Part shown: in pieces, positions 2,364 to 54,200 of the stretch
Layout: the number at the start of each line of letters is the position of its first letter
Position numbering within the stretch: the first letter of the stretch is position 1
Source of the DNA: Antedon bifida
Lineage: Eukaryota > Echinodermata > Crinoidea > Comatulida > Antedonidae
Assembly (NCBI GenBank): GCA_963402885.1
Contig: OY727102.1
Location: 18,042,001-18,106,000, forward strand
DNA: 64,000 bases
Direction: 5' to 3'
Notes under the pieces: model-generated
The model's database searches: none
Seen by the model: only the letters and a program-made list of their open reading frames with translations
Told to the model about the DNA's origin: nothing
Program-made: the position numbers and the translations under genes

Positions 2364-5300
2364 ATGTTATATCCAGATTACAACAAATGTTTACTTTATT
2401 TAATGCAACTATTGTGCATATTATTTGTAGGCCTAGTTCAAAAAGTACAGAATAGTTCTGCAGCAGCATCGGACGGTGCAATCGGGGGAGGAGACGCTGC
2501 TGCAAAACCACCGACTGGCCACCTGCAGCCGCTCGGCTCGCATCGACCTGCAGAGCCTGGGATAGACACCGTGGAAGCAATACCTCACCCTAAACAATTT
2601 TATGAAGATTATGTGAATAAGGGAAAGCCTCTGCTAATGCGTGGGGCTGCTAGCTCTATGCCAGCATTTCGACTGTGGAATGACGATTTTTTAAAGTGAG
2701 TTACATGAAATGATGTCATGAATTTGTGAAATTATTTAAATAATAATACTAATAATTTTATAGGCCTACGTAATTTATTCTTAAATTATTTTTTTTTAAT
2801 TTAGTAGGTCTAATTGAATTGGTTGAATTGCCATATTTAATGTATTGACTTATAACAATAAATTAACAGTATTCTTTTTTCTGTTGATTATTTAGTTAAA
2901 GGGGTATTTCGAGCTCAACGAACAAATTAATTATTGTTAATGGAATAATGTTAATCAAAATTCTATTTAATACTTTGATTTAATTTTTTGTAGGGCAGGG
3001 TACCAGCTTGATCAGCTTCAGCTGGATGGGTCACCCTTGTAAAAAATAAATTAAATTAAAAAGTTAGTAGTACTTTTATATAAAAGTACTACTAACTTTT
3101 AAATTAAAGGTTTTCCAATCAAATAATGTCATTTTGAAAATCTAAATGAAGAGTATTAAAAATAATTTTTGAAAAAGAAATTTATATTTGTAATTAAATA
3201 CATGACACTTTATGCTGCATTAAGAAATATTTTCAAATACTCATAAATCAAGGAAACGGGAAGAAATTGTTTAGTATCCTTTCAACTTTTCAAGTGATCA
3301 TTGATCAAATTTCAGCACCATATGCTTACATATGGTTTTCGACGTATTGATACTGATAGATTAATATTAAGGAGTGCCTCTCTGTACAAAGAATATAGAC
3401 CTACTGCTTTTTAAAAGAATGTATAGTTACTGCAGTAGAATAATTTGGCATGATCCATTAACTAATTGTGACAAAACTAAGAAGGTATTAAAAATACTAT
3501 GCTAATAATAATAATTTTAAAGTAGTTAGTATAAAATTATATGTAGTATAAATTTAGGATTACTAATTAGTATACCTCCCTATTGTAACAAGGCAACATA
3601 CAGTATTCAACAGGGCTGTACGCAGCATTTTATTTGGGTGGGTGCAGATTACTATATTTTGGACCATTTTCATAATGTATAGTTTAATACACTACAGATT
3701 AATTTTAAGACCCTATAAAATGTGGACCTTTTGCAATTTGGGGGGGGGGGGGGGGGGTGGTGCGTCAATTCACATTTATTTACTCATCGTTTCATAATAT
3801 AAATGATGGCAAGGATCCTGCATACTGTAGAGAACTTTACACTTCTGTTTTCGCAGGACCCTTTTACATCAAAAACATAAAACAATAAACACAACATAAT
3901 AAATATAAAATTTAAAAAAAAACATTTCCTATACATTTTAGAGTTGTTCATCATCATAAAGCGATAGTGTTTTCTAACATGATTATTTATACATTTGTTT
4001 TTCTTAAAAAGTTTATTACTTCCAGTACATGTGAATTCTTTCTTTATATTTTATAGCAAAAGTATAATACATTATAATATAAAACAGGCTATGTGTGTAT
4101 ACTCACACACACACCACTTATAGTTCTGTATATACAGTGTACAGTATATACTAATAATAATAGTAGACAATGATAGAGACATCTGTGTTCTAGAATTATA
4201 TCCTTTTTGTCCATAATTTATCACAACCATGAGGTATCTCTATGACAACACGGTTCCTTTTGTCCTCAATATTAAATGAAGGCAAAGGTTTGCAAATTTT
4301 CATTTTCTCTGTGAAAGGAAACTGTAATATAAAACTACTGTAGAGATCTGTGTACAATTCATATTATATACAAAAGCAAGTTCAATTTAATGACTGATCA
4401 ACATTCATTATTTGATGAGAAGCCCATCTGTTTTTTACATTGTATATATTTTACAAAACTGTAAAGCTTCAATATCCAGATACTAAGTGCAGATAAATTA
4501 AACATGCTGTACATCCTAATAATACTTGTTGTCAAAATTGGATAAGTCTTCCAAAACAAATCAGCTTACACAAAAATAAATAAGGGCCGAAATATGACAA
4601 TAATAAAATATTCTTTATAATTCTTAAGCTCTGTCTACACTATCAAACTAGTTTGACAACAAAAAAGTGTGATGTGCCCAAATATGGTAACGATATGCCC
4701 AAAGATGGTAGTGATATGACATCATCATGTCCATATATTGGCACACACATTTTTTTGTCACAAAAGTTTGATATTGTAGACAGAGCTTAAGTAATTGATA
4801 GATAGCCTTTATAATATAAAGCATCGACTACAGAATTAAAAGATCAATAATTGTTTTACTGATACATAATCAATAGAGACGAAAAATTGAAATACTAACT
4901 TATTACCACCCTTGATTTTTTAGCAGTAGCTGTCTCTATTTTTTTTTTAAATGCTTTATTTAAAAAATCGTAACATTCAATCATCTAGAGTGCTGTATAA
5001 TACAGTATAATAATACTTTTATTGCATTAAATGATTTTTTTCAAAGTTGAAAAAAATGTACGTAGTTATTCATCTATTCTTCTTGTTTTAATAAGTCGTT
5101 GTCAGTTTAATTAAAAATGGATGTAAAATCAATTGTCGATTACCATCCACATTTGGAAAAAAAAGGTTGACGATTTAAACAAGATATTTTTTACCTTAGT
5201 AAATAGTAGAGAAATTAAACACTACTATTCAACAGTTGAAAGATCCAACACTCACAAAATTATCATACTATAACTGATGACATTATTTATTAAAGATGTA

Positions 5301-31563: not shown

Positions 31564-41348
<9,785 letters not shown>

Positions 41349-41603
41349 AAGCCGGTCTAGGCCTAGTAGCCTAACTTTTTAGTAAAATATAAATAAACAC
41401 TTTTTCTTAAAAGTCGTCTGGGAATCGAACCGCCAACCCCTAGCTTTATGCCAACGATGTTCTGAACCGACTGAATTTTATTTAAATTTAGTTTAGTTTA
41501 TCCTTAGTTTATTATCAGACCTGTCAACTGGTCCTTGACCTTGTCATTGCACAATTTCAATGATGTATTGATGGCCTCACAATCACATTCTTCACTTAAT
41601 AAC
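41349..41603. promoter_or_regulatory. KATNAL2 upstream region with tRNA-like SINE fragment
   Basis: This is the KATNAL2 5' flank up to the Ty3 insertion. On the minus strand, GGGGTTGGCGGTTCGATTCC (41421-41440) contains a perfect pol III B box, probably from a tRNA-derived SINE. Before the Ty3 insertion this segment was continuous with 50735-51236. Confidence 0.5.
41599..41603. repeat. Target-site duplication of the Ty3 element (left)
   Basis: ATAAC immediately before the 5' LTR, matched by ATAAC at 50730-50734 after the 3' LTR. Confidence 0.85.
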
Positions 41604-41902
41604 TGTAGTATCGACCATAAGGGGGTGGCCGCTAAATGAATGGCCCGAACCTACCAACCGTCTGCGGGCGCCTGGTTCTAGTGCTTGTGACGTATGGACG
41701 GCTGGGCGTCATGCGCAGACGGTTGGAGCAGACCAAGAATCGGGGCAGTTAGCCACGGAGTTTGCCGTGGTTAGAAGGATATTACGGCTTTTAGCAGTAT
41801 TACCAGAGGATTTATATATATCAATTGGATTTGCCCCAAGCGGGAAGAAGTTCCCAGATAGGTGAGTATCTGGTGCACTTTGTTAAACGGGGTGAATACA
41901 AT
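41604..41902 (+). repeat. 5' LTR
   Basis: 299 bp, TGTAGTATCG to GAATACAAT. It contains a TATA-like TTTATATATA at 41811 and, ~50 bp later, a splice donor. The end is not canonical CA; the boundary is set by the 5-bp TSD (a 4-bp TAAC reading, with the LTR one base longer, is also possible). Confidence 0.9.
41862..41863 (+). promoter_or_regulatory. Candidate splice donor in the LTR/leader
   Basis: CAGATAG|GTGAGTATC is an excellent donor, ~50 bp downstream of the LTR TATA box, and would lie in the leader of every transcript. Paired with the acceptor at 48633-48634 it would remove gag and pol and place ORF3 first. Confidence 0.55.
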
Positions 41903-41904
41903 AT

Positions 41905-41922
41905 TGGCGCTGCGAGCAAAAA
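41905..41922 (+). other. Primer-binding site
   Basis: TGGCGCTGCGAGCAAAAA begins 2 bp after the 5' LTR. The TGG start fits the CCA 3' end of a tRNA primer. I could not assign the tRNA. Confidence 0.6.
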
Positions 41923-42240
41923 AGGATAATTATTCCTGTATTTTTGCTTGTTTTCCTAAGGAATTTGTGTGTGCGATAAAAGACACACTTGTTCCGCATA
42001 TTTATGCAAATTAGTTTCCAAGGTCGGTAGGAAAAGCATTTGCCGCGTTATTGCGGTACGGTGGGTTAGTATTACTTAATTGGATACATATATTTGTGTG
42101 TCTATTGGGATTGTGATAAATTAATATTTATTTCGCTTTTGGAAATCGAGAATCGATCTCCAGCGGCGGGGTTCAAAATTCCCGGTTGGGTGATAATAAA
42201 GTACGGGGTTTCTTTAGTGAATAGTAGCGTCTGGATTACC

Positions 42241-44433
42241 ATGCCCATAGACGGGAATCGCATTCGAGTGAATTTCTGTACACTCGAGCAATTATGCGAT
42301 ATTCCGGGAATAGGGGTGGTTCGGGCGGACGAAATTTTGTCCCTTAGGACCAGATTGGGGAATATTTCATCCGTAATAGATTTAAGTTCTATTAAGGGTC
42401 TGAGTAAGAAGCCAGAATTCTTAAGCAGATTCGATTTTTCACCTAACCCTAGGTTGTCACCCGAGGATTTTCGTCGAATGTTGGGTTCTGTGTCTTCGTT
42501 GGTAGATGATCGGAATGATTTTAGTGTTCATTCTCCAGCCCAACATTTAGAATCTGAGGGTGGAGCTGAAAGGGGAGGCTCTGGGGCAAAGGGAGTAGAA
42601 TTTGATAAGGCTCATCATAGATTAGGTGTTAGGTCTCCGATGGTCCTGCAGCAGCAGGGGTCGGCATCGTCTGGGTCTGCTGGGGTTAGTAAGGGCGCCG
42701 ATACAATTAAAAGTGCCCTAAAGAAGGCGGTGGGTCCCGGGAAGGACGATACTCGTTCCCGTAAAACTGAGCAAAAGCTTAAGTTTATGTCCTTTAGGGA
42801 ATTCTCTCTTTCTCCAGAGAACCAGGAAGAGGGTTACTCTAGTGGGGAGGAGGCTCATGTGGGTTCCGCAGAAGACTACGCAGCGACTCTCCGGTACAAG
42901 GCTGGGGAAATATCCTCATGTGGAAGGGGGAAAGAGTTTAGCGGGAATAAAGAATATGGAACTCCGGTATCAAAAGGGGGATATCCGGCTCCACAGAGGG
43001 AATCTCAAAATTACGAAGTTGGTACAGGCCGACAATGGGCAAATACGAGAGAGGGGAACTCATGGGGTGGAGATAGATCAGGGAACGGGTTCCCTGGGGA
43101 TGGTACTTGGGACCGTCCTGAATATCGTCCAAGGGATGACAGACCAAGACTCCCACACAGGCCTACTCATCAGGAATCGGATTGGACTTCGGACCGATCC
43201 GGGAGGTGGGACGGATACCAGGGGTCCGAGTCTCCTTATGGATGGTCATCCGGTCGTCCACGGGAGGGACCAGGGCGTCAGGACTGGGACTATTCATGGG
43301 TCGTTCCACAACCCTGGGGTAGATACGAAGAGAGGCCAGTATTATACCAGGACCGAAGGGATAGAGGTCCAAGGGCTGGAACTAGGGGTAATAGGGCAGG
43401 GGGTAGGCCAAGATGGGAACCTTTCCGATCTAAGGATGTCCCGAGAAGCCTGGTATATAGAGGGAAGGATAATTGGGCTTTCTTTAAACGTAGATTTAGG
43501 GCTTTTTCGGAAGAGCATCATCTTTCGCCCTGGGAAATGAAGGAGGCGTTTTGTTGGTGCGTGGAGGGGGCTGCGGCAGACCTCTACACCAATTTAGTAA
43601 CCATGGATGGGGACATTTCCTTTTGGGACATAATTCATGCCTTTGACCAACGATTTACGGAGGATGAACTTCCTGAGGTCCTCCAGGCCAAACTAGAGAC
43701 GGCATCCCAACATGAGACAGAAACCGTAGGGGAATGGGCCGATCGGGTATTAACCCTAACTAGGAAAGCCTTCAAGCCACTTTCCAATGAATGGATACAG
43801 AGACATTCAGCTATGAAGTTCTGTATTGGGTGCCGTAACACGGGGGTGGGGAAATTGGTACTTTTTGAAAACTGCGCGACTATGTCCGAGGCGCTTAGAA
43901 AGTACGACAAATTTAACAGCCTCCAATCTCTGTATGAAACAAAATGGGGAAAGGAAATAACATCTCTACCACCCCAGGCCAGGTCTCCAACGGTCTCGGC
44001 TAGGCCGATGGCGCAATCACGCCCGCTTTCCTCCACTTCCGTCCAACCGGAGGACGACAACGATAGTGAAGGGGAGGGGGAGCCCCTGGTCCGGTTAGTC
44101 GAGCGTAGGCCAGGGATGGAAAATAGGGGATTTTACCGACCACCACCTAGAGGTGGGTCCGAGGCCCGACCAGGTGGGTTAGGTAAGAGGGTGATGGCAA
44201 TCGAGGCGGATTTAGCCCAGGTTAAAGGGTTGTTAAAAAGGGTTCTGGAGATAGTAGAGGGCGGGGACCGAACGGGTGGGGGTTCAGGGCCGCCACCTCC
44301 TCCCCAATCCACTACTACTACCTGGGACCGCTGCTTTGAATGTAATGAGGTGGGTCATTTCAAAAGGGAATGTCCGAAATTAGCGCGGCAAGCCAGGCAG
44401 GTAGGGGAACAAGAGGATCCTTTAAACGAATAG
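42241..44433 (+). CDS. gag: Gag with HhH motif and CCHC zinc knuckle
   Basis: 730 aa from ATG 42241 (ACCATGC context). The frame is open further upstream but has no ATG there. Residues ~9-54 (VNFCTLEQLCDIPGIGVVRA, then DEILSLRTRLG) match a ComEA-type helix-hairpin-helix DNA-binding motif, unusual for Gag. A long Gly/Arg/Asp-rich region (~150-390) precedes a capsid-like segment (DNWAFFKRRFRAFSEEH through QHETETVGEWADRVL). The nucleocapsid knuckle CFECNEVGHFKREC (C-x2-C-x4-H-x4-C) lies at 698-711. The stop is 6 bp after the slippery heptamer that leads to Pol. Confidence 0.9.
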   Translation: MPIDGNRIRVNFCTLEQLCDIPGIGVVRADEILSLRTRLGNISSVIDLSSIKGLSKKPEFLSRFDFSPNPRLSPEDFRRMLGSVSSLVDDRNDFSVHSPAQHLESEGGAERGGSGAKGVEFDKAHHRLGVRSPMVLQQQGSASSGSAGVSKGADTIKSALKKAVGPGKDDTRSRKTEQKLKFMSFREFSLSPENQEEGYSSGEEAHVGSAEDYAATLRYKAGEISSCGRGKEFSGNKEYGTPVSKGGYPAPQRESQNYEVGTGRQWANTREGNSWGGDRSGNGFPGDGTWDRPEYRPRDDRPRLPHRPTHQESDWTSDRSGRWDGYQGSESPYGWSSGRPREGPGRQDWDYSWVVPQPWGRYEERPVLYQDRRDRGPRAGTRGNRAGGRPRWEPFRSKDVPRSLVYRGKDNWAFFKRRFRAFSEEHHLSPWEMKEAFCWCVEGAAADLYTNLVTMDGDISFWDIIHAFDQRFTEDELPEVLQAKLETASQHETETVGEWADRVLTLTRKAFKPLSNEWIQRHSAMKFCIGCRNTGVGKLVLFENCATMSEALRKYDKFNSLQSLYETKWGKEITSLPPQARSPTVSARPMAQSRPLSSTSVQPEDDNDSEGEGEPLVRLVERRPGMENRGFYRPPPRGGSEARPGGLGKRVMAIEADLAQVKGLLKRVLEIVEGGDRTGGGSGPPPPPQSTTTTWDRCFECNEVGHFKRECPKLARQARQVGEQEDPLNE
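44421..44427 (+). promoter_or_regulatory. -1 ribosomal frameshift site, T_TTA_AAC
   Basis: TTTAAAC is a canonical X_XXY_YYZ slippery heptamer, and it is in the correct phase: TTA and AAC are gag codons, GAA TAG follows. Pol lies in the -1 frame. Downstream GGTCGGGGCCTGACC and CCGAC can pair into a stem or pseudoknot, as such sites need. Confidence 0.85.
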
Positions 44434-47400
44434 GGGTCGGGGGTCGGGGCCTGACCACCGACTGCCAGCGTTCTGAAGGCTCGTGCGCTAAAAAGGAAGA
44501 GGGACAGGGGTACCCGGGTGGGGATCCTCTGGCGGTGTCCGGGGATATAGTTAGCTTAAAGGAAAGGGAACCATGCATAGTGGTAAATAGAGTGGAGTCA
44601 GCGAATGCATTGCATGCCACGGTGTTTGTGAATGGGCTTCGCACGGTAGCTGTAGTAGATACCGCCGCTGATTATACAATTCTTTCAGACCGGGTATTTG
44701 CCAAGCTGGACCCTGCCCCACCAATAATTGCAGAGCTTTCCTTTAAATTAGCAGGTAGGGGGACTTCTATGCCGGGATACCGGGTAGGCCCAGTCACGTT
44801 CGCATTAGGTTCCGAGGTGTACACTGAGTATATGTACGTGGCGCCGATTAATGACGATATGTTGCTGGGAGGGGACTTTTTGATACCCAATCGAGCTCTT
44901 ATCGATTGTGGGAAATTATTATTATCTGTGGGAACAAGTACACTTTCTCTTCGCAAAGAGGTGGGGGAGGTTAACCCTAGGGTTGCCCGGGTGACGGTTG
45001 GCAAGCGCAGGGTGCTTCCTCCGTTTTCGGCGGGATATATACTGTGCCGGTTAGATGTAACAGGGGAGCATCTCCCCGATTATTTCATTGAGCCCGATAA
45101 TCAGGGGAAAGTTTTAATTCCAGCCACTATTCATCGGGGTGGGACTGTTCCCAAAGTTTGCGTGGCGAATCTTACGGGCAGATATGTAACACTGAAACAG
45201 GGAGAGGTTGTGGGGAATGCCACTGAGTGGGAAGGTAATCATGCTTCTCAAGGGGGATCGGTGTCCACCGTAGGGGTTGACGCTTCAGAGAAATCCTCCA
45301 CGGACCAGGGTGGGGTACCACAACACCTGGAAGGAATGTTAGCGGATGTAAGGAAAACCTTGTCCGATTCTGAGTTCGATAGGGTGAAACAACTGCTCAT
45401 TGAGTTCCAAGATGTCTTTGCCGCCCATCAATTTGATATAGGAACTCTGAAGGGGATCGAGCATACTATTGATACGGGGGACGCGCCGCCAATCCGACAA
45501 CGACTCCGACCAACTCCTATGCACTTTGCCGGGGAGGAGGAAAAGGAGATCGATAAAATGTTACAAGCAGGGGTGGTTCAGCCTTCAGTGTCCGAGTGGG
45601 CCTCCCCACCGGTGTTGGTACGCAAACGGGACGGCTCAGTGCGGTTCTGTATCGACTACTGGGCTCTAAATAATGTTACAATTAAAGACGCCTATCCTCT
45701 ACCCTTGGTACGGGATTGTCTCGACGCTCTGTCGGGCAACACGTGGTTTACCAAATTGGATGCCATATGGGGGTACTGGCAAATTAATATGGGGGAAAAT
45801 GATAGGAGAAAGACGGCATTCATTACCAAGTACGGGCTATTTGAATTCGTTAAAATGCCATTCGGGCTATCAAATTGCCCAGCCACTTTTTCACGGGCTA
45901 TGGGTTTAGTATTGAGGGGGCTAGCCTGGGACACCGTTCTTGCCTTTCTGGATGACATTGTAGTGATGGGACGGGATTTCGATGACCATTTGGGCAATGT
46001 CCGACAAGTTTTAGAGCGTTTCCGGGCAAGCAGCCTTAAGCTCAAGCCGAAAAAATGTATCTTTTTCCAACGGGAGGTGGAATTCCTAGGCCGGGTAGTT
46101 GGTGGGGATACCTTATCGGTTTCGGCTACGGATGTTACTGTAGTCCGAGATTGGGCCGTACCTACCTCGGTAAAGGAGTTGCAACAGTTCCTGGGACTGG
46201 CTAATTACCACCGGGAATTCATTGACCATTTTGCCGATAAGGCTGGCCCGTTGTACGAATTACTGGGTAAAGGGGTCCCATTTGTATGGGGGCCCGAACA
46301 GCAAGCTGCTTTTGCTGGCCTAAAGTTGGCTCTCATTACACCTCCTGTTCTCACCCTTCCCAATACCAGGGACGAATTTATTTTAGATGTCGATGCGTCA
46401 GACCTGGCGTTAGGGGGAGAACTAATACAGGTACAAGGGGGACGGGAGAAGGTAATTGCGTATGCTAGCACCCGACTTACGGCGGAGCAACGCAATTACT
46501 GTACGACCCGAAAAGAATTATTGGCGGTGGTGTATTTGACGCGCCATTTTCGCCACTATTTGTTGGGTAGACCTTTCCGGGTTAGAACAGACCATAACAG
46601 CCTGGTCTGGTTACTGTCGTTTAAAAACCCCCAAGGGCAATTAGCTAGGTGGATAGAGGAACTCAGCCTTTATAATCTTGTTCTGGAACATCGTAAGGGG
46701 GTATTACATGGGAATGCAGATGCGTTATCCCGTCAGGCCAAACCGGTTGACCACTTTGAGCAGGGAGTTGACCCCGGGGATTTACCATGCGGGGGATGCA
46801 CTTATTGTGTCAGGGCGCATGGCCGGTGGGTCCGTTTCCGGGAAGACGTAGATGACGTGGTCCCGATCTCACAAATCCGGCAGATAGAACCGGACCCTAA
46901 TGAAGGGGGGTTGGTGGACCCGGGTGGGACTACGATCGAGGTCGTACGGGGGCCTTCGTGTTGTGCTATTAATTTGGTTCAAAACGATGTGGGGGGGATT
47001 TCAGCTATACAACCCGACGGTCGGGTATCCATGTGTTGGGGATACTCCTGTAAAGAGCTTGAGCAATTGCAGGCTAAAGATCCCGATTTAGCGGTTATCA
47101 GGGGATGGTTAGAATTGGGGGAACCGCCAGACGGGGAATTATTTAGATCCAGTCCAGCGACTAAACACCTATGGCTGAATCGAGAGTGGTTACATATCGG
47201 GGAGGATGGCCTCCTGTACATTCTCAGGGATGACATGGGGGGCGAGCGGCTAATTTTACCACGGGAACTCCATGCCGAGGCTCTGAGGCTTCATCATGAC
47301 ATCCCATCGTCCGGGCACCAGGGAATGTCCCGCACCAAACTCCGCCTCCGAGCTAAGTTCTTTTGGTATGGGATGGGGAGAGATGTGGAGCGCTACATCC

Positions 47401-48590
47401 GAGCCTGCGAAATCTGCAATCAAAACAAAAAGACTGCACGTAAGGGCAGGTCTCCGTTAACGGAGTTTCACGCAGGGGCGCCAATGGAGCGGGTCCACAT
47501 TGATTTCCTGGGACCTTTACCTAAGTCGGAGGCGGGTAACGTCCAGATCCTGATGATGGTGGATCAATTTTCAAAATGGGTAGAAATTAGTCCGTTACCA
47601 TCACAGACTGCAGAGGTGACGGCCAGGGCCTTAGTAGCTAACTTTTTCAGTCGGTTTGGGGTTCCGTTCGAGCTTCATTCGGACCAAGGCCGTAATTTCG
47701 AGAGCGAACTTTTTGGTTCTCTCTGTAAAGTTCTCCAAATTCACAAAACCCGGACGACCAGTTATCGTCCATCCGCCAACGGACAGGTCGAGCGTTATAA
47801 CCGCACACTGATGGATGCGGTTCGTTGCTTCGTGGGGAAGAGGCAACGGGACTGGGACGTCCACTTACCTCAAATAGCGGGGGCATTGCGGGCGACCGTT
47901 AATCGGTCAACCGGGTTTACACCGAATATGTTGATGCTGGGGCGGGAAGTGAACCTTCCAGCTGATCTCATGTTTGGGGGGGAATTGCAAGGAGATGGGC
48001 CGGATCCGGGGGTGGGGGTTTATGTCTCGGAGCTGGTCAACACCATCCGAGATGCACATGAGGTAGCTCGCACCACTCTCCGGCAAGCCCAGCGGCGTAT
48101 GAAGAGGGACTATGACCTTCGGGTACTGAAACGTTCCTATGGGTTGGGGGACCGGGTGTATGCCTTGGATGACAGCACGCCCAAGGGCAAGAGTAAAAAG
48201 TTGTGTCCTCCATGGAAAGGACCGGCGGTTATCGTGGGGGTCCTAACTCCCTCACTTTTCCGGGTTCAGTTCCGGAACAAAGTTATGGTGCTAAATCACG
48301 ATAAACTGAAGCCTTGCAGAGACAAGTTGCTACCCAAGTGGCTTCAGACCTTCCAGTTGCCCACTGCGTCAGCGAGTGGGGACCGGGCAGACACCACCAC
48401 GGGCGGCGAGTTGTATTGTTTTTGCCGACGGCCCTGGGGTGGAGCTTTTATGATCCAATGTGATTATTGTGACATCTGGTACCACGGGGTGTGTGTCAAT
48501 ATTTCGCAGCTAGATGCGCTCAATATTGACCGTTACAAATGTGCCGCTTGCCGAGAGCCAGCTATAGTCTCGGCGGCGCCTACTATCTAA
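44428..48590 (+). CDS. pol: Pol polyprotein: protease, RT, RNase H, integrase, PHD finger
   Basis: Made as Gag-Pol by -1 frameshifting. The frame is open from 44370, and residues are numbered from the ATG there (1406 aa). Protease VVDTAADYTILSD (~96-107). RT with RKRDGSVRFCIDY, KLD, and catalytic FLDDI (D528-D529). RNase H LDVDASDLALGG and TDHNSLVWLL. Integrase with an HHCC zinc motif (HHDIPSSGHQG to C-x2-C) and DDE residues in HIDFLGPL, HSDQGRNFE and GQVERYN. A GPY/F-like PPWKGPAVIV segment follows. The C-terminus is a PHD finger: C1350, C1352, C1364, C1367, H1372, C1375, C1391, C1394, with FMIQCDYCDIWYHGVCV. Two Trp (DYWALN, DAIWGYW) sit where Arg or small residues are usual and may be CpG-decay changes. 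Confidence 0.95.
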
Positions 48591-48632
48591 TAATCAATTC
48601 AATTTTAATTGCTTGTATTTTTCTATCGTTTC

Positions 48633-48634
48633 AG
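48633..48634 (+). promoter_or_regulatory. Candidate splice acceptor before ORF3
   Basis: TTGTATTTTTCTATCGTTTCAG is a pyrimidine-rich tract with AG, preceded by CTAATAATC-type branch-point candidates, in the 52-bp pol-ORF3 gap. The ORF3 ATG is 8 bp downstream. Confidence 0.65.
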
Positions 48635-48642
48635 AGTTAATA

Positions 48643-50187
48643 ATGAGTGACCCAAAACCAGAGGGGAAGACGGGCCAAGCCGATGATGCTTCGCTTTCCA
48701 GTGACCCGGGCGCGAGGGAGGCGCCAGTGGAGGACCGAGGTGCTCCTAGCCGAGTGGTAGTGGTCATGGACGAAGAACCAACACCATCGACCGAGGGGGT
48801 GTCGTGCAGCTTTCCTGGATGCGATGCTACGGGTATTCGTCATCTAAGAGCACATATGCAGGCCCGGCATTTTCCACCTTGTTTCCGGCCACAATCCCGG
48901 AGTACGGGGCGCCGTGCGCAAGTTCAGGCCCAAGCCCTGAGCGAGCTGGCGCGAATTATTGTCCGACCTGGTGGACGACAAGAACCACATGATTTGTTGA
49001 GGAGCCTGCAAGAAATGAAACTTCTTCCCATGGATGTGTCCTGGGAAGCCTTGGACCCTAAAACCCAGGGAGCAATGCTCAAACTGAACGGGGTTTTTAA
49101 GGGGAGGGAGGAGGACCTGTGTACACGGGTTGATAATCACCCTGCTTTCCTAATACATTACCGAGCACTGGCCGCCATGGCCAAACTCGTGGGGGTGGTT
49201 ACGTTTATGGCAGTGGCTGAACGGGCGGAGGCGAAGGTCCCAGTGCCTTCCCAGACGCCGGCTGACAGAAGGGGGAGGAAGCGGCGTGCGCCGACGGAGG
49301 GCTCTCGGGGTCCTGGCCCTGTGCCGGAAACCCCGCCTCCGCCGTGCGCTTTTGACGCACATTTTCACCCGGATCGTTTATTTTCGGCCCTAGGGCTGTC
49401 CCCAATCTATCAGATACGTCGGGTGAGGGATGCAGACCCTGTAAAGCCAGGAGACCCAAGGGTCACCGTTCTAGGGGCAATCGCGGTTTTCTGTGATCCG
49501 CCCACTTATCCATCCCTCAGGGAGATAAACCTGATGCAGTCGCCGCCGTACAACCATGTTTCCGTTGGGCTACACCCCACGCGCATGGTGTCGGCGCGGG
49601 AGTTTGCTACTTTTCGGGGGTTGGCCCAGAACCTGAGTGTTCGGGCGCTGGGAGAGGTGGGTCTGGACCACAACCGTTCCATCACCGACTGGCCCCGACA
49701 AGATCGGCTCCTGGAGCGGATCTTGCGGGAATGTTTCTGCCCCCAGCGTCATCACGTGCTGACCCTGCACCTGCGGGGTGCGGCGACTGACCCAACGGGG
49801 GAGGAATGCTACCTCCGGGGGCTGGACCTTCTTCGGCTGGTGGGGGTACCCCGTGGACAGAAACTGATTTTGCACAGTTTCTCGTCATCGGTATTCATTG
49901 TGGAGGAATTCCTGAGATTCTTCCCAATGACCTATTTCAGTTTCAATTTGGGGGTAGGGCGAGCGTGCCCAGCTGTGCAGGAGGCCTGCAGATACCTCAT
50001 GTACCAGTCGGAGCGCCGGGTCCTACTGGAGACGGACGCCCCTCACTTTCGTCCGGCGGGCCACCGGGTAGGCTCTCCCTACCTCATCGGCTTCGCCGCC
50101 GAAGCCCTGGGGAAGATTACGGGGATGGAGGCCAGTGAGGTTCTGGACCTCACCTGGAAGAATGGCCGGGATCTGATCCCGGAATAG
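48643..50187 (+). CDS. Retrotransposon ORF3: C2H2 finger plus TatD-family metal-dependent nuclease
   Basis: 514 aa from ATG 48643; the open frame upstream has no ATG and lies before the acceptor. A single C2H2 finger (C55-x4-C60-x10-H71-x4-H76) and a basic cluster (RRGRKRR, 209-215, possible NLS) precede a TatD-like TIM-barrel domain, ~236-514. Every metal ligand expected for TatD hydrolases is visible: H240-F-H242 (FDAHFHPD), E338 (LGEVGLD), H376 (LTLHLRGA), H411 (LILHSFS) and D465 (LLETDAPHF). TatD enzymes are 3'-5' exonucleases/DNases. The ORF lies wholly between pol and the polypurine tract, matches the element's GC-rich composition and has no introns. It is therefore part of the element, probably captured from a cellular TATDN gene. 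Confidence 0.9.
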   Translation: MSDPKPEGKTGQADDASLSSDPGAREAPVEDRGAPSRVVVVMDEEPTPSTEGVSCSFPGCDATGIRHLRAHMQARHFPPCFRPQSRSTGRRAQVQAQALSELARIIVRPGGRQEPHDLLRSLQEMKLLPMDVSWEALDPKTQGAMLKLNGVFKGREEDLCTRVDNHPAFLIHYRALAAMAKLVGVVTFMAVAERAEAKVPVPSQTPADRRGRKRRAPTEGSRGPGPVPETPPPPCAFDAHFHPDRLFSALGLSPIYQIRRVRDADPVKPGDPRVTVLGAIAVFCDPPTYPSLREINLMQSPPYNHVSVGLHPTRMVSAREFATFRGLAQNLSVRALGEVGLDHNRSITDWPRQDRLLERILRECFCPQRHHVLTLHLRGAATDPTGEECYLRGLDLLRLVGVPRGQKLILHSFSSSVFIVEEFLRFFPMTYFSFNLGVGRACPAVQEACRYLMYQSERRVLLETDAPHFRPAGHRVGSPYLIGFAAEALGKITGMEASEVLDLTWKNGRDLIPE

Positions 50188-50410
50188 TCTTGCTCCGCCA
50201 AGGGGCCCAGAAGTGTTTTTGTTGGTTTATTAATAAAATTAAAAGAAGAGTACGGTTATTTTTAGTTCAGTTAACAGAAGCTCGTTTAGTTGTAATTTGC
50301 ACCAGGCCCACGGCCGGGTGCTACGTTTGGGATCACCAGTTAGCAATTCATTGAACCCAGTCTCAGGGACTGGGCTGCAACGCTGGCCAGGTGACCCCGG
50401 GGACTACCTC
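50188..50410 (+). other. Retrotransposon 3' untranslated region
   Basis: Between the ORF3 stop and the polypurine tract. It holds an AATAAA at about 50230 and GC-rich sequence; no ORF is supported. Confidence 0.5.
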
Positions 50411-50430
50411 TTTTTCAAAACCGGGGGGAG
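50411..50430 (+). other. Polypurine tract
   Basis: CCGGGGGGAG directly abuts the 3' LTR and would prime plus-strand DNA synthesis. Confidence 0.75.
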
Positions 50431-50729
50431 TGTAGTATCGACCATAAGGGGGTGGCCGCTAAATGAATGGCCCGAACCTACCAACCGTCTGCGGGCGCCT
50501 GGTTCTAGTGCTTGTGACGTATGGACGGCTGGGCGTCATGCGCAGACGGTTGGAGCAGACCAAGAATCGGGGCAGTTAGCCACGGAGTTTGCCGTGGTTA
50601 GAAGGATATTACGGCTTTTAGCAGTATTACCAGAGGATTTATATATATCAATTGGATTTGCCCCAAGCGGGAAGAAGTTCCCAGATAGGTGAGTATCTGG
50701 TGCACTTTGTTAAACGGGGTGAATACAAT
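50431..50729 (+). repeat. 3' LTR
   Basis: 299 bp; I found no difference from the 5' LTR on reading through both. Confidence 0.9.
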
Positions 50730-50734
50730 ATAAC

Positions 50735-51236: not shown

Positions 51237-54200
51237 ATGTCGGACTATTTGGAATTAAAAGTAAGCAATATTTGTCAGTTTGTGGTCCTTTGATATACTA
51301 TTTTTACTTATCGGACATATCGTTAGGCCATGGATGAATTTAACTTTCCGTGTAATATTTATTCACTTTTTGTAAGGTTTAATAAAGGGCTAAATCAATC
51401 GAATGACTTTGAGAGCGCAATTTGTTTTGTCCGGCTGACTGTGTGGAGGCTAGCCCACACTTTTTTCGCGGTGTACGATAGATCGGTCCGCCTTCATCAG
51501 GGTATTCGTCAGTGGGCAATCATCTTGATTGGTGAAGCCTATATTTAGTCTTTGGGCTTAGGCCACACCGCACTTGTTGTTATATTTTTGTATTAATTGT
51601 ACTGCTGTTCTAGGCCAGGCCTAGTCTATATATTTATGATCAGTATTTTTTTTTGGTAACTTCAAATGTTGCATAACATAATATTAATAATTTGATTTCA
51701 AAAGAATAAAGATAAAGATCTGGTTGTCTTTTTTTGAGCAGACTGACAACTGAGATAACACGTTTAGCCTCTTATATACAGCATACAAAGGTCTTCATGT
51801 TGAAATGACAATGTAAAGTATTGTCTAACTCTGTGTTAGTTAGCCTACTACTTGGCCCTCAAGGTACTCCCTATAGCTAATACACTTGCCTATAGCAGAT
51901 CTGGCCTAGCTAGAGCCATAAAGCATAACAATTTTAATTAAAAAATGTACAATGATATGTAATTATTTTTTAAACCATGTTTACCTTGTTATCTTTCCAT
52001 ACTGTACGGTACATAATAATGAGTTCTGTATTTATTTTCGTTACGGTCAACTATGCGTGTGTAATTTATTATTTTCCATAGGCATGGTTGACCATGCATC
52101 AAATTTAAGGTTTTAGGTTTCTATAGGCACTTTCAACTCTCTGTCTAGTTCTATGCCGATAAAAGAAACATAATTAATTATTAAACATTTTTCTTCCACT
52201 TCAACATAGAGGTTGAACTGTGTGCGAGAAACCTGTATGTAAAATCATCAATTTAAAGGATTTGTTACTTTTTGTGTGATTTTCCTTCATAAAAGTACTT
52301 ATGAGGCCTAATTGTAAGGTACATTCACAATAAAGTAATTGTAAATTTTTACATGCTGTCATATGGATGTTGTTATAAATAAGGAAAAATCGCACTCAGC
52401 GGAAATTGACAAACAAGATTTAGCTCATAGGTTTCTTTGGTCAGTGCTGTTTTGAAAATACAGATAGTCTTAGAAAGTGAGCACAGTATCCTACTGTATG
52501 TTATGTACCTAGTCTAGCACAATTACATCCATGTCTGAGTAATTCTGTATATTTTTTTCAGCGAATGGTTATGAGTTTTCGTGTTTCTGAACTACAAGTA
52601 TTGTTAGGATTTGCAGGAAGGAACAAAAGCGGTCGTAAACATGAACTCCAAGCAAGGGCACTTGCATTGCTAAAAAACAATTGTAATACACCAGTTGAAA
52701 TTAAAATAAAAGAGCTAAATAGGAGACGATTCCCTAGGCGGTTAGTTAGCCCGCCGCAAGTAGCAGTTGGAAATTCAAATAGTAGCAGTAGGAACACAAA
52801 TCAAATGCCAGCAGAAAGAATATCGCCGCCAAGCAATCCAGCATTACCGCAGTTTCCACAATTCTATCCGTTTAGTTCTCAGCAACATACGCCACAGCAC
52901 GTGGGAGGTCAACATATTGAACTGACCTCGCCTCAGCCTGTTAGACCTGATGTTAAATTTTGTCCATTACCATTTTATGATATCCAAGATGACCTAGTAA
53001 AACCAACTGGTCTGGGTAAGTACTGTAATTGCTTTTTTTTTAAAGATGAAGCTATAATTTTTTAAAGAAATATAGTGATTGATTTTCATTTACTCTTTAT
53101 TGTTCACATAAAACATTTGGTAAGTGTTTTTCTAATATATAAGGGACACTACTATTGAAGTGATATCCCTATTGAAGTGACACTCCTATTCAAGGGACAC
53201 TCCTATTCAAAAGATACTTCTATTCAAGGGATACTCCTATTCAAGGGATACTCCTATTCAAGGGACACTCCTATTCAAGGGACACTCCTATTCAAGGGAT
53301 ACTCCTATTCAAGGGATACTCCTATTCAAGGGATACTCCTATTCAAGGGATATTCCTATTCAAGAAATACTCCTATTCAAGGGATACTCCTATTCAAGGG
53401 ATACTCCTATTCAAGAGATACTCCTATTCAAGGGATACTCCTATTTAAGGGATACTCCTATTTAAGTGACATCCCTATTCAAGTGACACCCCTACCTATT
53501 CAAGGGACGCCCCTATTCAAGGGACGCCCCTATTCAAGGGACACTTTGTTGGTTCCTGAAAGTGCCCCTTTAATAGAGGCTCTAATGTGTACTAAATTAA
53601 TAAGCTGATTAATATTCTTCAATGACAGTGCCATCTGGAAAATATAGAGAAATCCAAAGAACCGTGTTATTTCACCTAACACCACAGCAATTACAGATGA
53701 TTCGTGAATCTTGGACACCGAATCCACGAATAGAATATGCAGTACAAGTTCAACTAAGGTAAGTCAATTCATCCACACTGCATATTTAAATGAATTATTA
53801 ACAATTATAATAGTAGCACATATATTTCACAGGGTATTTAAACAGTTTTCAGGTATTAAGCTCTGTCTACACTTACCAAACTAGTTGGACAAAAAAAAGT
53901 GTGACATGCCGAAATATGGTAGTGATATGACATCATCATGTCCATATATGGGCACATCACATTCTACGCTCGCGCTAAGGTCAAATTTTCGTTCGCCAAA
54001 ATGGCGAAAGGTTTTGAAAAACATTAGCCAAATTGAAAATCCTTTAGCCAAATTAAAAAAACCATAAAAATTCGCAAAAATGTTTATTTAATAAATAATG
54101 CATGTATTTGTTTGTTATTTGTGACTTCTTTTACATTTATATTATTATTAGGTATCCCAATGAAGCTGATTTTCGTTACCGCGATTTTAACACGTTCGTG

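Follow-up and report, generated by a model that had tools for sequence, protein, structure and literature searches.

The window analyzed here, 64,000 nt of Antedon bifida DNA, contains one Ty3-type retrotransposon, at 41604-50730, which is complete, is bounded by identical long terminal repeats (LTRs), and carries an intact third open reading frame (ORF3) whose product has a TatD fold in its C-terminal half. There is good support for regarding ORF3 as a functioning component of the element instead of cargo, descended from a cellular nuclease of the TATDN2 type, and we take it to be a real, intact, and probably functional Ty3 accessory nuclease. The explanation that best covers the whole, and that we favor with moderate confidence, is a functional TATDN2-derived ORF3 that would be expressed from a spliced mRNA as a nucleic-acid-binding nuclease acting on hybrids or 3' ends. 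The features discussed below are listed here by their position in the window.

41600..41603, no strand: target-site duplication TAAC, left copy, same as 50731-50734
41604..41903, + strand: 5' LTR, 300 nt, TGTAGT...CAATA, no difference from the 3' LTR
41859..41867, + strand: predicted splice donor TAG/GTGAGT, GT at 41862 (site score)
41905..41917, + strand: probable primer-binding site TGGCGCTGCGAGC, its TGG one base past the 5' LTR
42241..44433, + strand: gag, with helix-hairpin-helix, capsid-like region, and CCHC knuckle (in-frame ATG at 42241)
44370..48590, + strand: pol ORF, with protease-like region, reverse transcriptase, RNase H, and integrase (Pfam)
44421..44427, + strand: slippery heptamer T TTA AAC for -1 frameshifting, in the gag frame (canonical X XXY YYZ phase)
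48417..48551, + strand: PHD finger at the integrase C-terminus (Pfam PHD, 4.9e-7)
48615..48635, + strand: predicted splice acceptor GTATTTTTCTATCGTTTCAG/A (ranked fifth among 579 AG sites across the element)
48643..50187, + strand: ORF3, 514 aa, predicted TatD-family nuclease (ATG to TAG)
48805..48870, + strand: C2H2-like motif C55 C60 H71 H76 of ORF3 (sequence motif)
49261..49287, + strand: basic stretch ADRRGRKRR, ORF3 residues 207-215 (sequence)
49351..50175, + strand: TatD domain, ORF3 residues 237-511 (Pfam, AlphaFold2, Foldseek, VIA-align)
50423..50430, + strand: polypurine tract GGGGGGAG, abutting the 3' LTR
50431..50730, + strand: 3' LTR, copy of the 5' LTR
50731..50734, no strand: target-site duplication TAAC, right copy, same as 41600-41603

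Borders, gag, and pol of the element

That the element is of the Ty3 type, as the original prediction held, is borne out by its paired LTRs, the target-site duplication, a probable primer-binding site, a polypurine tract, and an integrase that lies 3' of reverse transcriptase and RNase H in the order of Pfam domains along pol (RVT_1, RT_RNaseH, Integrase_H2C2, rve). The LTR repeat is identical over 301 nt; its final T was assigned to the flank and the LTR taken as 300 nt. Sequence outside the element is AT-rich, at about 28-40% GC, and the GC-rich island at 42-50 kb is the element itself. ORF3 does lie between pol and the polypurine tract, as had been claimed, with the pol stop codon at 48588-48590 and the tract at 50423-50430. 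The identical LTRs and the 4-bp duplication together mean that ORF3 was most likely inside the unit that inserted. Neither the identity of the LTRs nor the TAAC duplication had been mentioned before, and the same is true of the PHD finger of pol, the pair of splice sites, and the relatives of ORF3. Within the window no second copy of gag, pol, or ORF3 was found by tblastn, and scans for tRNAs and Rfam families gave no match. A nested insertion of ORF3 was rejected, there being no flanking repeat pair among repeats of at least 40 nt, as was bacterial contamination, ORF3 lying between identical LTRs with a PIAS-like ORF nearby. Between ORF3 and the 3' LTR are an AATAAA at 50232 and an ATTAAA at 50238, use of which would drop the 3' LTR; they may serve the ORF3 RNA or be ignored.

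Gag matches the Pfam models HHH_3 (3.5e-7) and zf-CCHC (2.2e-5), and falls slightly under the cut-offs for Retrotrans_gag (1.3e-4) and PNMA (5.6e-5). The helix-hairpin-helix lies near its N-terminus, at 42256-42411, and to our knowledge is an unusual motif in a Gag. In pol, the reverse transcriptase, RNase H, integrase, and PHD domains all score over their Pfam cut-offs, and the protease-like region is represented by two aspartyl-protease matches slightly under the Pfam cut-off. The slippery heptamer stands one codon ahead of the gag stop, at a point where the -1 frame is open for pol, so that -1 frameshifting is the most likely route to Gag-Pol; the fold 3' of TTTAAAC is no better than those of shuffled sequences (z -0.04). 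Features shared with Ty3/gypsy elements (Metaviridae) include the LTRs, the 4-bp duplication, the probable primer-binding site, the CCHC gag, the reverse transcriptase-RNase H-integrase order, the -1 slippery site, and the polypurine tract, whereas in place of env its third ORF encodes a predicted TatD nuclease, and a PHD finger follows the integrase.

ORF3, its relatives, and its descent

The reading of ORF3 as 514 uninterrupted codons stands, the longest stop-free run in 2000 base shuffles being 351 codons (mean 148, six frames). TatD_DNase, the Pfam model proposed as a check, matches with E = 3.7e-22 (79.4 bits vs a cut-off of 27) and is the sole Pfam match at E up to 1, on which ground an Env-like ORF3 was rejected. 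The catalytic and metal-binding residues (HxH, E, H, H, D) are all present where they had been placed, as H240, H242, E338, H376, H411, and D465. AlphaFold2 models the TatD domain with pLDDT mostly >90, and the structural comparison that had also been suggested (Foldseek, VIA-align) identifies the TatD fold. Judged by its score against NCBIfam TIGR00010 (2.6e-15, 56.6 bits, below the cut-off of 206), ORF3 is related to that TatD subfamily but falls outside it. QatD of the Qat anti-phage system offers another TatD nuclease in a genetic-conflict setting, and ORF3 matches QatD models at 2.8e-15 and 8.7e-12; QatD is bacterial, however, and the 56.1 bits of ORF3 lie far below its NCBIfam cut-off of 230.

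For the part of ORF3 ahead of the TatD domain, the predicted structure, taken alone, has a mean pLDDT of 55. The C2H2 finger of the original prediction holds as a motif, one that recurs in four relatives (P0001, P0002, P0003, and P0007), but at E up to 1 it is matched by none of the Pfam zinc-finger models. The remaining relatives either do not have the finger region or are shorter proteins. N-terminal parts of ORF3, P0001, and P0003 gave self-matches only among 163 proteins (phmmer, E up to 1). The basic stretch is also found as described, at residues 207-215, and its sequence makes it a possible nuclear localization signal.

Used as a single query against 5.8 billion proteins, ORF3 retrieved 12 of them (P0001-P0012), and a profile search retrieved 38, including P0133, P0134, and many ordinary TatDs. 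Over the aligned region of the single-query search P0001-P0011 are 29-39% identical to ORF3; in the comparison made for the tree, identity is 28% for P0011 and 31-39% for eleven other relatives. The six residues are invariant in all 12 rows formed by ORF3 and P0001-P0011. Of 26 TatD columns that are invariant among the other rows (at least 8 letters), ORF3 agrees with 24. Across a 24-row alignment E338, H376, H411, and D465 are invariant. H240 and H242 vary there, an effect due at least in part to fragment rows, such as P0133, that lack the N-terminus. Retention of all six residues in relatives this diverged supports purifying selection on the ORF3 family, in line with the selection inferred originally.

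Origin from a cellular TATDN-type gene, likewise part of the original prediction, is supported by a tree of 27 rows in which a provisional sequence stands for human TATDN2. ORF3, P0001-P0011, and P0133 (13 rows) form one group (support 97/91), with P0012 outside the family; provisional human TATDN2 groups with P0134 (99/94); and the ORF3 group joins these TATDN2-like rows (99/96), apart from TATDN1, TATDN3, and other TatDs, with ORF3 on a long branch. For P0001, P0003, and P0007 the best match outside the family is provisional TATDN2 (2e-26 to 5e-28). Besides the tree grouping, ORF3 shares with TATDN2 (human; medaka tatdn2) a TatD domain with an FCDP motif, which reads AVFCDP in ORF3, ANFCDP in P0134, and ADFCDP in provisional TATDN2; it differs in being element-encoded, in its C2H2-like motif, and in being about 27% identical to the provisional sequence. 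Two other sequence comparisons pull the other way and count against TATDN2 descent. By BLAST, ORF3 has its best non-family match in P0155, an ordinary TatD (1.8e-14), with provisional TATDN2 scoring lower (1.9e-12). Among solved structures, in a set that includes no chain named TATDN2, bacterial YcfH-type proteins fit the family profile (1.7e-33) far better than TATDN1 or TATDN3 do (about 5e-15).

The relatives may instead constitute an ordinary animal gene family from which the element recently gained one member, a reading that we regard as unlikely. In its favor, ORF3 of this element is the only family member directly seen inside an element, and P0010, the one relative assigned to a named organism, is an uncharacterized YabD-like protein of Lytechinus pictus annotated as a gene. 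Against it, the relatives are long (up to 900 aa) and uninterrupted, ORF3 is close to none of them at the identities given above, and P0007 (TatD) and P0067 (Ty3 pol with a PHD finger) each come from one contig of 9947 nt. This coincidence, of which 0.046 are expected (6 TatD contigs of at least 3 kb vs 93 of the 120 listed pol contigs), is suggestive of an element-borne ORF3 family. The long relatives, with ORFs as called in the source data, would also fit intronless genes. No TatD was found on viral contigs, comprising 69 picked by a seven-residue pattern and the distant Ty3 viral contig L081 (tblastn with ORF3, pol, and five relatives), of which L081 matched pol only, and phage records held no match. 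At least 304 genome-contig loci encode a relative; the best 80 all have titles that name bacteria, with best segments 23-31% identical, and by these matches and titles look like ordinary bacterial TatDs.

Expression and possible roles of ORF3

The predicted splice donor, which sits in the LTR 3' of a TATATA-rich stretch (41813-41820), shares with its 3' LTR copy the top score among the element's 534 GT sites. When the LTR was resampled 1000 times under a first-order Markov model, 33 resamplings equalled this score. Four acceptors in the element outscore the one that precedes ORF3; when 75 nt around the gap between pol and ORF3 were likewise resampled 1000 times, its score was equalled 28 times, and 55 of the 1811 overlapping windows of 75 nt laid across the element contain an acceptor as good or better. 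The gap from the pol stop to the ORF3 ATG spans 52 nt and contains a polypyrimidine tract ending TTTCAG; candidate branch points TTAAT and CTAAT lie 26 and 44 nt 5' of the acceptor, and the ORF3 ATG is the first ATG past it. With donor and acceptor each an event of about 3%, splicing of ORF3 appears likely. There is moderate support for a scheme in which the LTR-leader donor would be joined to the acceptor before the ORF3 ATG, yielding a subgenomic ORF3 mRNA, while full-length RNA would give Gag and, via the -1 frameshift at TTTAAAC, Gag-Pol.

The ORF3 protein would bind nucleic acid via its finger and basic stretch. TATDN2, the closest relative that has been studied, is reported as a structure-specific RNase acting on R-loop RNA (PMC10707325), and a second report places TATDN2 in germ-cell genome maintenance (PMC12709183). 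The roles originally put forward for ORF3, namely trimming of cDNA, quality control, and countering of DNA sensing, are hypothetical, and by comparison with TATDN2 its substrate would be RNA or an RNA-DNA hybrid no less than DNA. Reverse transcription yields long RNA-DNA hybrids, an obvious substrate class for a TATDN2-like enzyme, and by this analogy we infer that hybrids of the element could be a substrate of ORF3. Like TATDN2, ORF3 would degrade the RNA in such hybrids or trim 3' ends. In doing so it would remove RNA that RNase H leaves behind in reverse transcription or, alternatively, resolve hybrids in the nucleus at element transcription or integration. This more specific proposal, of nucleic acid binding combined with hybrid-RNA degradation or 3' trimming in reverse transcription or in the nucleus, is advanced tentatively, as possible rather than probable.

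Several other accounts of ORF3 must be weighed against a functional accessory nuclease. LTR elements in general are known to capture host transcripts, and ORF3 might be a functionless passenger derived from a TATDN2-like mRNA captured in reverse transcription. There is a single direct instance, and the composition of ORF3 is unlike that of gag (GC3 0.625 vs 0.473; codon-usage correlation 0.37), the codon-usage correlation with pol being 0.64, equal to that between gag and pol. Yet 514 codons are intact, six residues are kept at 28-39% identity, the N-terminal finger is common to four relatives, and a predicted acceptor lies just 5' of the ORF3 ATG, which makes a passenger quite unlikely. Single-stranded nucleic acid is a substrate of TatD nucleases, which would suit a role in counter-defense, with ORF3 destroying element cDNA in the cytosol, small RNAs of the host, or further nucleic acids that host surveillance would sense or use. 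Orchid Ty3/gypsy elements carry an ORF for an AlkB-type m6A demethylase, active in vitro, and the authors who describe them propose a link to host surveillance (PMC9289625). The basic stretch of ORF3 hints at the nucleus instead, and to counter-defense we assign a small though real probability.

Cer1 of C. elegans produces from spliced RNA an accessory protein, CERV, that is needed for export of genomic RNA (PMC10309623). An extra LTR-element protein from a spliced mRNA is also what is predicted for ORF3; CERV differs in that it shares the frame of most of its exons with the polyprotein and is described without obvious homology beyond nematodes. ORF3 might accordingly be mainly a nucleic-acid-binding factor for export or packaging, with the nuclease secondary, a view to which the finger, the basic stretch, and the need of an RNA retaining splice sites for an export route all lend weight. 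A binding role, however, leaves the strict conservation of catalytic residues unexplained, and we judge it very unlikely to be the main one.

To process their nucleic acids, reverse-transcribing elements normally depend on RNase H together with nucleases of the host. ORF3, as a dedicated TatD-type nuclease kept by an LTR retrotransposon, would give the element a second nuclease of its own, one with a directly testable substrate. It would also be a small model for TATDN2, a germ-line genome-stability enzyme. Among the literature matches listed, none by its title concerns TatD or TATDN proteins in retrotransposons and none describes this arrangement, in keeping with the original view of it as undescribed. 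ORF3 extends a known theme, that of LTR elements with acquired enzymes. Terminons, which are Penelope-like, provide a parallel among other retroelements. These giant EN-deficient elements are reported to carry DEDDy 3'-exonucleases, an accessory 3'-exonuclease as proposed here but of unrelated nuclease type and element class (PMC6431247). The orchid elements likewise combine an extra ORF of cellular enzyme type with a Ty3-type element, and differ in the enzyme, the plant host, and their size of 25 kb.

The PHD finger of pol and neighboring sequence

By sequence, the PHD finger of pol is nearest to those of PHF8, BPTF, and PHF2 (4e-12 to 6e-12). The PHD fingers of these three proteins bind H3K4me3, and the Y, W, M, and W of the pol finger occupy what we take to be the H3K4me3 cage positions. 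A C4HC3 pattern is found in the final 40% of 83 of the 120 pol relatives listed (P0013-P0132, out of 420), including proteins of Ostrea edulis and Pinctada imbricata; pol relatives from Lingula and Elysia are without it. A PHD finger of H3K4me3-reader type in Ty3 pols is possibly a targeting module. Chromodomain elements read repressive marks, and unlike these the ORF3-bearing element would, from its PHD finger, be directed to active chromatin. A wider model, which we regard as highly improbable, has an animal Ty3 lineage in which the PHD finger brings cDNA to active promoters, sites rich in RNA-DNA hybrids, and a spliced TATDN2-type nuclease resolves hybrids there, or the element's own, letting integration proceed. 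No title among the literature matches listed describes a PHD finger in a Ty3 pol; among Ginger1 DNA transposons, a published table shows one family as having a PHD finger (PMC2836005).

Some pol relatives have further domains: P0090 has a KptA/Tpt1 RNA 2'-phosphotransferase domain (4.2e-43) between integrase and PHD finger, and P0125 a Macro domain (6.3e-34) fused ahead of the protease. Three Ty3 pols (P0017, P0097, and P0109) are labelled as bacterial MAGs (Sedimenticola, Thiodiazotropha) and are most likely host DNA in symbiont bins.

Upstream of the element, on the minus strand, a LINE-type ORF at 38932-41136 encodes an endonuclease and a reverse transcriptase and ends within the reverse transcriptase match; a further ORF follows at 38143-38892. 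An ORF at 52565-53065, 1.8 kb 3' of the element, encodes a SAP domain resembling the one in SUMO ligase PIAS1 (1v66, 5.8e-20) and, to judge from this match, is probably an exon of a PIAS gene. A 17-bp minisatellite of 23.6 copies occupies 53141-53545, and interspersed repeats of about 160 nt, SINE- or MITE-like and with many pairs 88-91% identical, occur in both orientations at 4629, 11684, 16202, 29879, 30454, 31366, and other positions.
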